From Mycobacterium sp. (GTDB taxonomy: Bacteria > Actinomycetota > Actinomycetes > Mycobacteriales > Mycobacteriaceae): a stretch of DNA of 42,220 nt. A program made the translations under genes and the position numbers. The notes beneath the pieces were generated by a model. The model worked only from the letters and a program-made list of their open reading frames with translations. It had not been told where the DNA came from and did no database searches. The stretch is from NCBI GenBank assembly GCA_020438865.1, contig JAGQTU010000029.1, positions 1 through 42,220 of the forward strand, written 5' to 3'. The number at the start of each line of letters is the position of its first letter. Positions within the stretch are counted from its first letter, which is position 1. Shown here piece after piece: positions 972-36,265 of this stretch.

Positions 972-4046
<3,075 letters not shown>

Positions 4047-9452: not shown

Positions 9453-10790
9453 ATGGCTTTGGGCAGCGCAGCCGGGGCGGTCAGCCCGGAATGGATTGGC
9501 CGCGCACCGCACGAGGAGCTCGAGCGGGGCGCGCGCCCGGTGCTTCCGTCGAAAGACCCGTTCTTCACACCCCCGGCTGGCTTCGAACACGCCGAACCCG
9601 GCACCGTGCTGAGGTCCCGCGACGTCGAGCTGGGCTTTCTCGGCCTGATCCCGCAGAAGGTCAAGGCCACCCAGCTGCTCTACCGCACCACCGACATGAA
9701 CGGCCTGCCGCAGGCCACCGTGACGACGGTGCTGGTGCCCGCGGCGCACCGCCCCGACCACATCCGCCCGGTGGTGTCCTACCAGTGCGCCATCGACGCG
9801 GTGTCGTCCCGATGCTTCCCGTCGTACGCGATGCGCCGCCACGCCAAGGCGGTCGGCTCGCTGGCCCAGCTGGAATACCTGCTGGTGGCGGCCGCGCTGG
9901 CCGAGGGCTGGGTGGTGTCGGTGCCCGACCACGAAGGCCCCGACGGCATGTGGGGTGCCCCCTACGAGCCCGGTTACTGCGTGCTCGACGGGCTGCGCGC
10001 CACCCTCAGCTTCGAGCGGTTCGGCCTGGCCCCGGACAGCCAGGTCGGACTGTGGGGCTACTCCGGCGGCGGGCTGGCCAGCGCCTGGGCCGCCGAGATG
10101 CACGCGTCCTACGCCCCCGAGCTCAACATCGTCGGGGCGGTGCTCGGCTCGCCGGTCGGCGACCTGGGCCACACCTTCCGCCGGCTCAACGGGTCCTACC
10201 TGGCCGCGCTGCCCGCACTGGTGGTCTCCGCGCTGGCCAAGACCTACCCGGACTTGAACCGCGTGATCGAGCAGCACGCCACCGAGGACGGCCGCGAACT
10301 GCTGCGCCGGCTGGAATCCATGACCACCCTGGAGGCGGTCGTCCGGCTGTTCCGGACCGACATGGACGACCTGGTGCACCCGCCCCTCGAAGACGTGCTG
10401 GAGATGCCCGAGGTCCAGTACGTTTTCGAGAACATCAAGCTGGGCACCTCGGTACCCACTCCGCCGGTGCTGCTCGTGCAGGCCGTGCACGACTCGGTGA
10501 TCGCCGTCGACGACATCGACGAGCTGGCCCACCTGTACTCTTCCGGTGGCGCGCAGGTCACCTACCACCGCGACATGTTCAGCGAGCACATGCTGCTGCA
10601 CCCGATGTCGGCGCCCATGACGCTGCGCTGGCTCACCGACCGGTTCGCCGGGCGGCCCCTTGACGAGCACATCGTACGGACCAAGTGGCCGACCCTGCTC
10701 AACCCGATGACGTATGCCGGCATGTGGCGGCTGGGCGGCATCGTCGCCCGCGTGGTCACGGGCGGCCGGGTTCCGTTCCGCCCGCTGTGA
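9453..10790 (+). CDS. Lipase-family alpha/beta hydrolase (LIP family, Rv1592c-like)
   Basis: 445 residues resembling secretory-lipase (LIP) family hydrolases. The nucleophile is S204 in [15 protein letters not shown]. The probable acid Asp is in [13 protein letters not shown] and the probable His in [11 protein letters not shown]. No signal peptide is apparent, so it may be cytoplasmic or cell-wall associated by another route. Natural substrate unknown, probably an acyl ester. The ATG at 9453 follows AGGGGAA closely. The neighbourhood (nadABC, NrtR, lipase, DUF2567, bsaP, bioB) matches the M. tuberculosis order from memory. The last 35 bp overlap the convergent DUF2567 gene. Confidence 0.82.
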
Positions 10791-11523
10791 CCCACGGCGA
10801 CGTGGTGATCAGCGCCGGCGCCCCCAACGGATGCCGTTCCATCGCGGGCCAGGCGCCGAGATCGTCTCGTGGCGTGGCCACCGCGAGCAGGGCGTAGACC
10901 AGTGCGGCCAGCGCCGCGGGAAGCAACAGGGTCGCGGCGATCTGCAAGGGGGTGTGGCCGAAGAACACCGGGGGCGCTTCGGTGAGGTAGTGGATGCGAT
11001 TCTCCTGGCTCAGCGGTATCGCCTGGTGATCGACCGCGCCATAGCGCCAATGGGCAAGGGCCGCACCGACGCTCGTGGCCGCCGCCGCCGCGGCGACCTG
11101 ACCGATCCACAGTGCGGCCGCGATGACCGGGCCCCGGTGCGGCCGCCACTGCCAGACCAGCACCGCCGACACCACCGCCAGCATGGTCAGCAGCCCGATC
11201 ATCATGGCGCCGGCGACGAACAGATGGTCGGCCTCCTTGCCGAGGTAGGCGTCGACGCGCTCGCCCGAGCGGGTCAGCGCGACGATGGTGTGCACCGGCG
11301 GTGCCAGCCACGCCCACACCGCACCGAGAACGGCTCCGGTCACGGCCAGGCCGAGGACGACGATGCCCGCGGCGGCGCCGCGCGAGACGCGTGGGGCCCT
11401 CTGATCTTCGCCCGAGAGGCTCATCGGGGCCCTCCGCTCTTCGCCCGAGAGGCTCATCGGGGCCCTCTGCTCTTCGCCCGAGAGGCTCATCGGGGCCCTC
11501 CGCTCTTCGCCCGAGAGGCTCAT
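10756..11523 (-). CDS. DUF2567 membrane protein with repeated N-terminal start cassette
   Basis: Up to 255 residues. After four N-terminal 11-residue repeats MSLSGE(E/D)(R/Q)RAP come four hydrophobic segments: [20 protein letters not shown], the segment around [40 protein letters not shown], and one around [19 protein letters not shown]. It is recognisable as the Rv1591-type DUF2567 family; function unknown. The ATG at 11523 overlaps the bsaP stop (ATGA) and has GGAGGT 7 nt upstream. ATGs at 11490, 11457 and 11424 are also in frame and also preceded by purine-rich runs; the last would give 222 residues, close to the M. tuberculosis length from memory. The gene is third in the bioB operon. Its 3' end overlaps the convergent lipase gene by 35 bp. 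Confidence 0.75.
11392..11523 (-). repeat. Four tandem 33-bp repeats, each an in-frame start cassette
   Basis: Units begin at 11523, 11490, 11457 and 11424 (minus strand), exactly 33 bp apart, and are nearly identical. Each encodes MSLSGE(E/D)(R/Q)RAP and ends in AGGGCCCCG directly before the next ATG. In units 1 and 3 this reads GGAGGGCCCCG-ATG, a Shine-Dalgarno at normal spacing. Units 2 and 4 have CAG for CGG and a weaker AGAGGG. Because 33 is a multiple of three, copy-number change keeps the reading frame. A minisatellite (VNTR) of this kind is expected to be length-variable between strains. Confidence 0.9.
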
Positions 11524-11750
11524 CGCTGCACCTCCAGGTCCGTAGAGTCCACCCGGCCATGCCTCGAGCACCGCGCCCACCAACCGTCCGGGCGCACCTG
11601 CACGGTCATCCGGCGTCCACATTCGGCGCAGAACCGGGGCGGTTCCAGCCCGAGCTCCGCTGCAGTGGGCACCACGCTGCCCGCCGGCGCGCCGGTGTAG
11701 ACGTTGTAGACCCCGGCACCCAGCGGTGCGGGAAGTTCGTCGACCATCAC
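11520..11750 (-). CDS. bsaP: Biotin synthase auxiliary protein BsaP (Rv1590-like)
   Basis: 76 residues with a metal or Fe-S site C41-x2-C44...C61-x2-H64 (FCAECGRR ... RCSRHG) in the second half. Small proteins of this type encoded directly after bioB in mycobacteria have been reported as BsaP, needed by BioB to convert dethiobiotin to biotin; I use the name on position, size and cysteine pattern. The start is GTG 11750 or ATG 11747, 8-11 nt after the bioB stop. The stop overlaps the DUF2567 start (ATGA), so bioB-bsaP-DUF2567 is one operon. Confidence 0.8.
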
Positions 11751-11758
11751 CTGCTTTT

Positions 11759-12775
11759 CTACAGGCTGGCGTTCAAGGCCTTGATCGGCATCTGCAGATC
11801 GTCGAGCAACTCCAGGTCCGATTCGGCGGGTCGGCCCAGGGTGGTCAGGTAGTTACCGACGATGACGGCATTGATGCCACCCAGGATCCCCTGCTTGGCA
11901 CCCAGGTCGCCGAGAGTGATCTCGCGACCGCCGGCGAACCGCAGCATGGTGCGCGGCAGCGCCAGCCGGAACGCGGCAACCGCCTTGAGCGCCTCCGCGG
12001 CCGGCATCACCTCGAGATCGCCGAACGGAGTGCCCGGCCGCGGGTTGAGGAAGTTCAGCGGCACCTCGTGCGGGTCCAGTTCGGCGAGGTTGGCGGCGAA
12101 CTCGGCGCGCTGCTCCAGGGTCTCGCCCATGCCCAGAATGCCGCCGCAGCAGACCTCCATGCCCGCGTCGCGAACCATTTGCAGGGTGTCCCAGCGCTCG
12201 TCCCAGGTGTGGGTGGTCACCACGTTCGGGAAGAAGGACTTGGCGGTCTCCAGGTTGTGGTTGTAGCGGTGCACGCCCATCTCGGCGAGTCGGTCGACCT
12301 GCTCGGAGTTGAGCATGCCCAGCGAGCAGGCGACGTGGATCTCGACCTCGTTGCGGATCGCCTCGATGCCGGCGGCGACCTGAGCCATCAACCGCTCATC
12401 GGGTCCGCGGACGGCGGCCACGATGCAGAACTCGGTGGCGCCGGTCTTGGCGGTCTGCTTGGCGGCCTCGACCAGGCTGGGAACGTCCAGCCAGGCGCTG
12501 CGCACCGGGGAGGAGAACAGTCCGGACTGCGAGCAGAAGTGGCAATCCTCCGGGCAGCCACCGGTTTTCAAGCTGATGATGCCCTCGACCTCGACCTCGG
12601 GACCGCACCAGCGCATCCGGACCTCGTGGGCCAGGGCGAGGAGTTCCTCGAGCCGATCGTCCGGCAGTTGCAGGACCTCGAGCACCTGGGCCTGGGAAAG
12701 GCCTTCGCCGCGTTCGAGCACCTGCTCGCGCGCCGATGCAAACACGTCGGTACCCTGCGTGGCTGCCTGCGTCAC
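11759..12775 (-). CDS. bioB: Biotin synthase BioB
   Basis: 338 residues. A radical SAM enzyme that inserts sulfur into dethiobiotin. The SAM-cluster cysteines are C74-x3-C78-x2-C81 in [35 protein letters not shown] and [11 protein letters not shown] are strongly conserved blocks that include ligands of the auxiliary cluster region. The frame allows a GTG at 12781, but GTG 12775 (MTQAATQG) has AGGAGG (12788-12783) exactly 7 nt upstream, which decides the start. A BioQ operator and a TAACCT -10 box lie just upstream, so biotin-responsive repression is expected. Confidence 0.97.
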
Positions 12776-12801
12776 CCGCACTCCTCCTGCCGAAGACCGG
12801 A

Positions 12802-35855: not shown

Positions 35856-36265
35856 CGTTCCAGGATCTTCTTCAGCGTCGCCAGGTCGGTCTTCACCGCC
35901 GCCCCGTCGGCGATGAACTCCACATCGCTCATGCCGGGACGGCGTCGCAGCGTGAACACCACCTCACACCAATCCGGCCCCGCGGGAACCACCCTCAGCG
36001 GGTTGAACACCGGCTCACCCGACGGCATCGTGACAACGTGGTCGAGCACCCCGAGTTCGTTCGTCGGACTGAATTCGACGGTGATCTCACCCATGGGTGA
36101 ACGCACCACCCAGTTCTCGCCGACCCGGGTCACCTGCCCCTCGGCCAGACCGGCGGCCCAGCGCGGCAGGTTCTCCGGGTTGGACGCGAACCGGTAGACC
36201 TCGGCGGCCGGTCGGTTGATCCAGGCGCTGATGTGTTGGGACTCGCCCGCCGTGTCATCGTCCAT
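35852..36265 (-). CDS. SRPBCC (START-like) family protein
   Basis: 137 residues from ATG 36265, or 143 from GTG 36283. Helix-grip fold pattern: ISAWINRPAAEVYRFASNPE, LPRWAAGLA, a run of beta strands, and a C-terminal amphipathic helix AAVKTDLATLKKILE. These proteins bind hydrophobic ligands such as lipids or polyketides; the ligand here is unknown. M. tuberculosis has a similarly sized gene (Rv1546) next to dnaE1, from memory. It is divergent from the membrane protein at 36292. Confidence 0.8.
   Translation of the reverse strand: MDDDTAGESQHISAWINRPAAEVYRFASNPENLPRWAAGLAEGQVTRVGENWVVRSPMGEITVEFSPTNELGVLDHVVTMPSGEPVFNPLRVVPAGPDWCEVVFTLRRRPGMSDVEFIADGAAVKTDLATLKKILER

Follow-up and report, generated by a model that had tools for sequence, protein, structure and literature searches.

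MIRUs sit at overlaps between stop and start codons (DTGA sites) and lie in the direction of the genes. REP elements (Y1/RAYT transposases) are short, non-autonomous, and present in many copies per genome. The available text of one paper states the MIRU unit size as 46–101 bp (PMC3914561), and in the available text of another, on the MIRU-VNTR upstream of fpg1 in M. tuberculosis, the authors relate the length of the repeat to mRNA level (PMC2734929). This report makes it reasonable to ask whether extra starts alter output, and it proves nothing for the element described here. Our subject is a tandem array of 33-bp units on a stop/start overlap between bsaP and a DUF2567 gene, found in a window that is the whole 42,220-nt stretch of Mycobacterium sp. 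DNA analysed.

The array at the bsaP/DUF2567 junction

Four 33-bp units lie on the minus strand at 11392–11523, each with an in-frame ATG, and TRF reports a repeat of period 33 at 11393–11525 (4.0 copies, 96% matches, score 245). On this strand, bioB (biotin synthase, 11759–12781; TIGR00433, E 3.7e-110) is followed by bsaP (biotin synthase auxiliary protein, the upstream junction partner, 11520–11747; NCBIfam NF052237, E 9.9e-25) and then by the DUF2567 gene (255 aa, 10756–11523; Pfam PF10821, E 4.4e-71), the last two also delimited as open reading frames (ORFs). The first DUF2567 ATG (11523–11521) overlaps the BsaP TGA (11522–11520) in an ATGA, and the repeats encode DUF2567 residues 1–44. 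As delimited from the sequence, TRF, and ORFs, copy 1 spans 11491–11523 and carries the overlapping ATG, and copies 2, 3, and 4 span 11458–11490, 11425–11457, and 11392–11424. The first-pass annotation had described four in-frame units that each open with ATG and had set them on the overlap with bsaP, and both descriptions agree with what we found.

That annotation also had each unit end in a purine-rich run 6 nt before the next ATG, and placed a native GGAGGT 7 nt upstream of the first start. The runs are present, at slightly shorter distances. Read from the minus-strand sequence and supported by pairing energy, GGAGGT (11530–11535) stands 6 nt upstream of the first ATG, and GGAGGG in copy 1 (11496–11501) stands 5 nt ahead of the copy 2 ATG, with similar runs (GGAGGG or AGAGGG) closing copies 2 and 3. 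A run followed by an ATG is found for three units; the fourth has diverged (GAAGATC, then CCACGC) and no ATG comes after it. Predicted pairing of the four window starts with the 16S tail is −13.0, −12.2, −7.7, and −12.2 kcal/mol. Across sampled bsaP/DUF2567 junctions, 32 internal starts average −5.87 kcal/mol and 132 native starts average −5.63. The internal values run from −2.8 to −12.2 kcal/mol, so the earlier picture of a ribosome-binding/start cassette is right as to in-frame units with an ATG and too general as to a strong Shine-Dalgarno run.

The next in-frame ATG, GTG, or TTG past the array is a GTG within the first hydrophobic segment of the DUF2567 protein (codon and segment both judged by eye). 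Because no such codon lies between the array and this segment, one of the repeat ATGs is very likely the start of DUF2567 translation, and several of them may be used. Elsewhere in the window, at 35869–35910, TRF also detected a 21-bp tandem repeat in two copies, which has no match to the core of the 33-bp element.

Empty and filled sites

The core of the element reads ATGAGC-N6/7-GCGAAGAGC, followed by ~11 nt that end in CG ahead of the next ATGA. The pattern ATGAGC-N(4–10)-GCGAAGAGC has 14 exact copies on 7 contigs of the window's genome, and it is above chance because the reversed pattern, used as a control, has 0. With the array as query, blastn found five places in this genome, the array itself included. 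By reading, the element opens at five of the seven places in the genome on the ATGA with which the upstream gene ends: at the bsaP/DUF2567, sulfite reductase/cysH, and argF/argR junctions, and directly behind an NHL-repeat gene and a TetR gene. At the sixth, the Alpha-E/transglutaminase junction, the upstream stop comes earlier than the element, and the seventh is a single in-frame copy within the MurT ligase gene (L006, contig C33). After the NHL-repeat gene (L002, ~1400–1600, contig C318), several 32-bp copies are interrupted by a masked stretch.

We then compared the bsaP/DUF2567 junction across 134 loci (71 + 60 + L270, L274, and L306; L112 yielded no junction). A recount reduced an initial 132 to 122 distinct sequences by removing 9 duplicates and a second match that was false (L337); copies in these were counted allowing up to 4 substitutions. 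Of these, 23 carry 1–5 copies, all beginning on the overlap, and 99 carry none. The first-pass annotation had proposed comparing copy number across relatives, and the number indeed varies from 0 to 5. Its suggestion that the array grew from the gene's own first codons fared worse. An ordinary coding tandem repeat, produced by slippage from the N-terminus of the DUF2567 gene, would account for copies that are here 33 bp long and in frame, yet 99 of 122 junctions lack the unit altogether, and the same DNA occurs at unrelated genes and in other frames. We therefore regard this origin as very improbable and rejected local slippage of native codons on the strength of the interspersed copies and the empty junctions.

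Copy number differs even between close relatives. M. septicum has 1 copy at the junction, while records named M. peregrinum have 2, 3, and 2, and two loci (L088 and L089) carry 2 and 3 copies despite 97.6% identity over their 327-bp upstream flank. The element probably entered this site on more than one occasion, because four loci (L321, L322, L330, and L344) bear the other core type there. On a weakly supported junction tree, presence and absence require at least 8 changes; these concern part of the junction set, since the tree has 113 rows and leaves out 9 short-flank loci, 7 of them repeat-bearing. A second site also occurs in both states. At the sulfite reductase/cysH junction, 5 of 30 loci are filled (L400, L402, L407, L411, and L423), and three more (L416, L420, and L427) resemble decayed copies by eye. 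Here, L402 differs from the empty L403 and L417 by 32 bp cleanly inserted at GCG^ATGAG and bounded on each side by GCGATGAG.

Given these sites and the spread of the pattern across genomes, the array likely derives by tandem amplification from a short interspersed repeat. This repeat would be non-autonomous, insert into stop/start overlaps (CG^ATGA) or be tolerated there, bring an ATG and often a Shine-Dalgarno-like run, and rebuild the overlap. This reading draws directly on the sequence, its distribution, the empty and filled junctions, and the variation in copy number. The repeat would be mobile: a 33-bp unit would have landed on the bsaP/DUF2567 overlap and may then have multiplied to four by slippage or recombination. 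Each unit would supply an ATG, often together with a purine-rich stretch resembling a Shine-Dalgarno sequence. An insertion that restores the −4 stop/start overlap could leave the downstream gene translationally coupled. The repeat may thus enter or survive at such overlaps because the overlap, often along with a ribosome-binding site, is rebuilt.

Unit anatomy, siting, and spread

Tandem periods were tabulated over 138 distinct tracts. With the 21-nt core, the period is 32 bp in 32 cases (18 from array L263 alone), 30 bp in 9, and 33 bp in 3; with the 22-nt core, it is 33 bp in 21 of 21, 17 of these at the bsaP/DUF2567 junction. The 32-bp unit is a closed 11-codon micro-ORF whose TGA overlaps the next ATG, whereas the 33-bp unit (22-nt core, as in the window) stays in frame, so that every copy lengthens the protein by 11 residues. 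Ten arrays with a 32-bp step had enough flank to show what precedes them, and in 9 it is an ORF of 172 codons or more that ends in the ATGA. L263, whose genome belongs to a different family of the order, has nineteen tandem 32-bp copies, likewise preceded by an ORF of 172 codons or more. L279 differs from these junctional 32-bp arrays in having five in-frame copies at a 30-bp period inside an ORF.

A gene-frame caller built on codon and Markov models was too weak (217 of 300 correct on its own training pieces), so siting was judged by ORF closure against control sites. The sampled loci are non-random: they follow search listings and chosen well-assembled genomes, and likely include a few chance matches. 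Within the genus (Mycobacterium taken broadly), the start falls on an ATGA that closes an ORF of at least 100 codons for 45 of 95 elements, compared to 79 of 478 control CGATGA sites (p = 5e-10). The next DTGA stands at +32 in 21 of 95 elements and in 2 of 478 controls. Outside the genus, significance is reached for the +32 spacing (14/33 vs. 0/47) and not for the preference for ATGA closure (8/33 vs. 5/47, p = 0.09).

The remaining 50 of the 95 genus elements lack a long ORF that ends in their first ATGA, and some copies have no clear downstream start or lie inside genes (MurT, L006; L279). Such placement away from clear junctions is what would be expected if this were only a selfish or neutral repeat, surviving where 32- or 33-bp insertions harm least, with its ATG and purine run as by-products that have no effect on expression. 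Copy number that is free to vary, and varied spacers that in some cases pair weakly with 16S rRNA, fit that explanation as well. However, predicted pairing with the 16S tail is stronger for distinct spacers that run up to a start than for the remaining ones (mean −5.06, n = 78, vs. −3.47, n = 93; p = 3e-5), and a next DTGA at +32 is far more frequent than at control sites. Compared to their own shuffles, the start-ending spacers have a small numerical Shine-Dalgarno excess (−5.06 vs. −4.53). On balance, a purely selfish or neutral repeat seems to us unlikely, and a repeat that inserts or is tolerated at overlaps and rebuilds them is preferred.

The core itself is tightly conserved, its two commonest forms making up 83 and 35 of 200 distinct contexts. 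This could also indicate that the core is bound by a putative regulator acting on DNA or RNA and has been multiplied at selected genes, with the start overlap pointing to post-transcriptional control. The available text on Beggiatoaceae proposes start-proximal heptamer repeats as regulator sites (PMC4679880). Still, many copies lie away from starts, the flanking genes that we could name have no evident function in common, and an Rfam search of the window returned no match. We consider a multiplied regulator site improbable. Hairpins predicted in the core are weak ones only.

Most named DUF2567 orthologues are from Mycobacterium, Mycolicibacterium, or Mycolicibacter, hence our broad reading of the genus. 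The core pattern occurs in 137 of 198 genomes of the genus, with a maximum of 90 copies per genome, and single matches may be due to chance because the reversed control gives 11 matches over all 198. In an order-level survey, the pattern was present in 76 of 298 genomes. Genomes of three families (f2, f6, and f12) have many matches, and in other genera of the same family 2 of 20 genomes have one match each, which is the control level (a control match in 5 of 20). At class level, 14 of 296 genomes contain an exact match to the 22-mer of the commoner 21-nt core type, comprising 12 of 18 from the genus and 2 of 278 others. A related pattern, followed in three genomes, contributed little more than genome G057 did.

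Two vehicles for the repeat were considered and rejected. Y1/RAYT transposases are not associated with it (25 of 36 vs. 112 of 162 genomes, p = 1, over the 198 genus genomes), and the window's genome, which is 90.9% complete, has no match to a Y1 transposase. For carriage by phages or plasmids, blastn with the 161-bp array (E 0.01) gave no match in 72,556 plasmid and 50,697 phage records, and viral contigs contained no exact match to the 22-mer of the commoner 21-nt core type. A loose pattern gave at least 120 stretches in viral contigs, each with one match, which were taken as chance and excluded from all counts.

Longer and composite forms of the element were found in other actinomycete families. 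By a fuzzy match, of which at least one call (L267) looks false, a second module lies upstream of the core in 25 of 45 distinct contexts outside the genus and in 7 of 163 within it. Seven of 21 long units are 77–83 bp, a length of 2 mod 3, and form one micro-ORF of 26–28 codons that ends in the next ATGA; the rest are 75, 84, or 85 bp, or are shorter stretches that our script seemingly anchored badly. A related longer form, from a genome in a different family of the class, lies between rplE and rpsN (L449, ~1490–1575, minus strand). One genus genome has four 54-bp in-frame units with a related core (L028, 12–240) at the head of an MlaD-domain, Mce-like gene, in an array that stands at a contig edge and may be cut by it.

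Tentatively, and with less confidence than for the insertion at overlaps described above, we suggest that MIRU-type translation-coupling elements may not be confined to mycobacteria and may be one form of actinomycete-wide mobile start cassettes. The full 77–83-bp form, one micro-ORF running from DTGA to DTGA, would be found in other families, where even the gap from rplE to rpsN holds a related copy. From its last module, a stripped 32/33-bp form would have arisen and spread through Mycobacterium, contributing leader peptides or N-terminal repeats along with additional starts.

If insertion at overlaps is correct, a minimal mobile cassette can enter the tightest intergenic spot with coupling unbroken, and its copy number would add start sites or N-terminal residues. 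The variable counts in near-identical strains then offer a natural experiment in translation coupling, and the pairs of empty and filled junctions make the movement and tolerance of MIRU-like repeats directly testable. The cassette would also call for caution in annotation, as start sites and N-termini are uncertain at such junctions.

Comparison with described repeats

Like REP elements, the repeat is short, non-autonomous, and multi-copy. It differs from them in having a core with weak predicted hairpins only and in lacking an association with Y1 transposases. The TAACTGA repeats of Beggiatoaceae, as described in the available text, are similar in that they are short direct repeats just 5′ of the starts of many genes, with a patchy occurrence across distant lineages, but they are heptamers without an ATG of their own (PMC4679880). 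The MIRU-VNTR upstream of fpg1 is likewise a variable tandem repeat between adjacent genes, reduced to a few bases in most other species according to the available text (PMC2734929). By contrast, its units are described there as 55- and 79-bp composites between genes rather than in-frame start cassettes. Among the matches listed in our literature search, no publication describes an ATGAGC-N6/7-GCGAAGAGC repeat.

The closest comparison is with MIRUs themselves, and the first-pass annotation was apt in drawing it. The MIRU10 primer has no exact match in 396 genus genomes, and its single near match comes without a tandem array. At 33 bp here and 30–33 bp in the tandem arrays of the genus, the units fall short of the 46–101 bp stated for MIRUs, a range that is reached by the related 54-bp units (L028) and by the 77–83-bp units outside the genus. 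The internal ORF of MIRUs, with a stop that overlaps the next start at −4 nt, is shared by the 32-bp units and by 7 of the 21 long units, whereas it has no counterpart in the window's 33-bp units, which read through in frame. As to siting, 45 of 95 elements start at an ATGA that closes an ORF of 100 or more codons (79 of 478 controls do) and the other half do not. Because the units are shorter than those of MIRUs and the 33-bp units close no ORF, we call the element MIRU-like and do not call it a MIRU. It shares with MIRUs the features of being interspersed at many loci, tandem, variable in number, and often placed at start codons.
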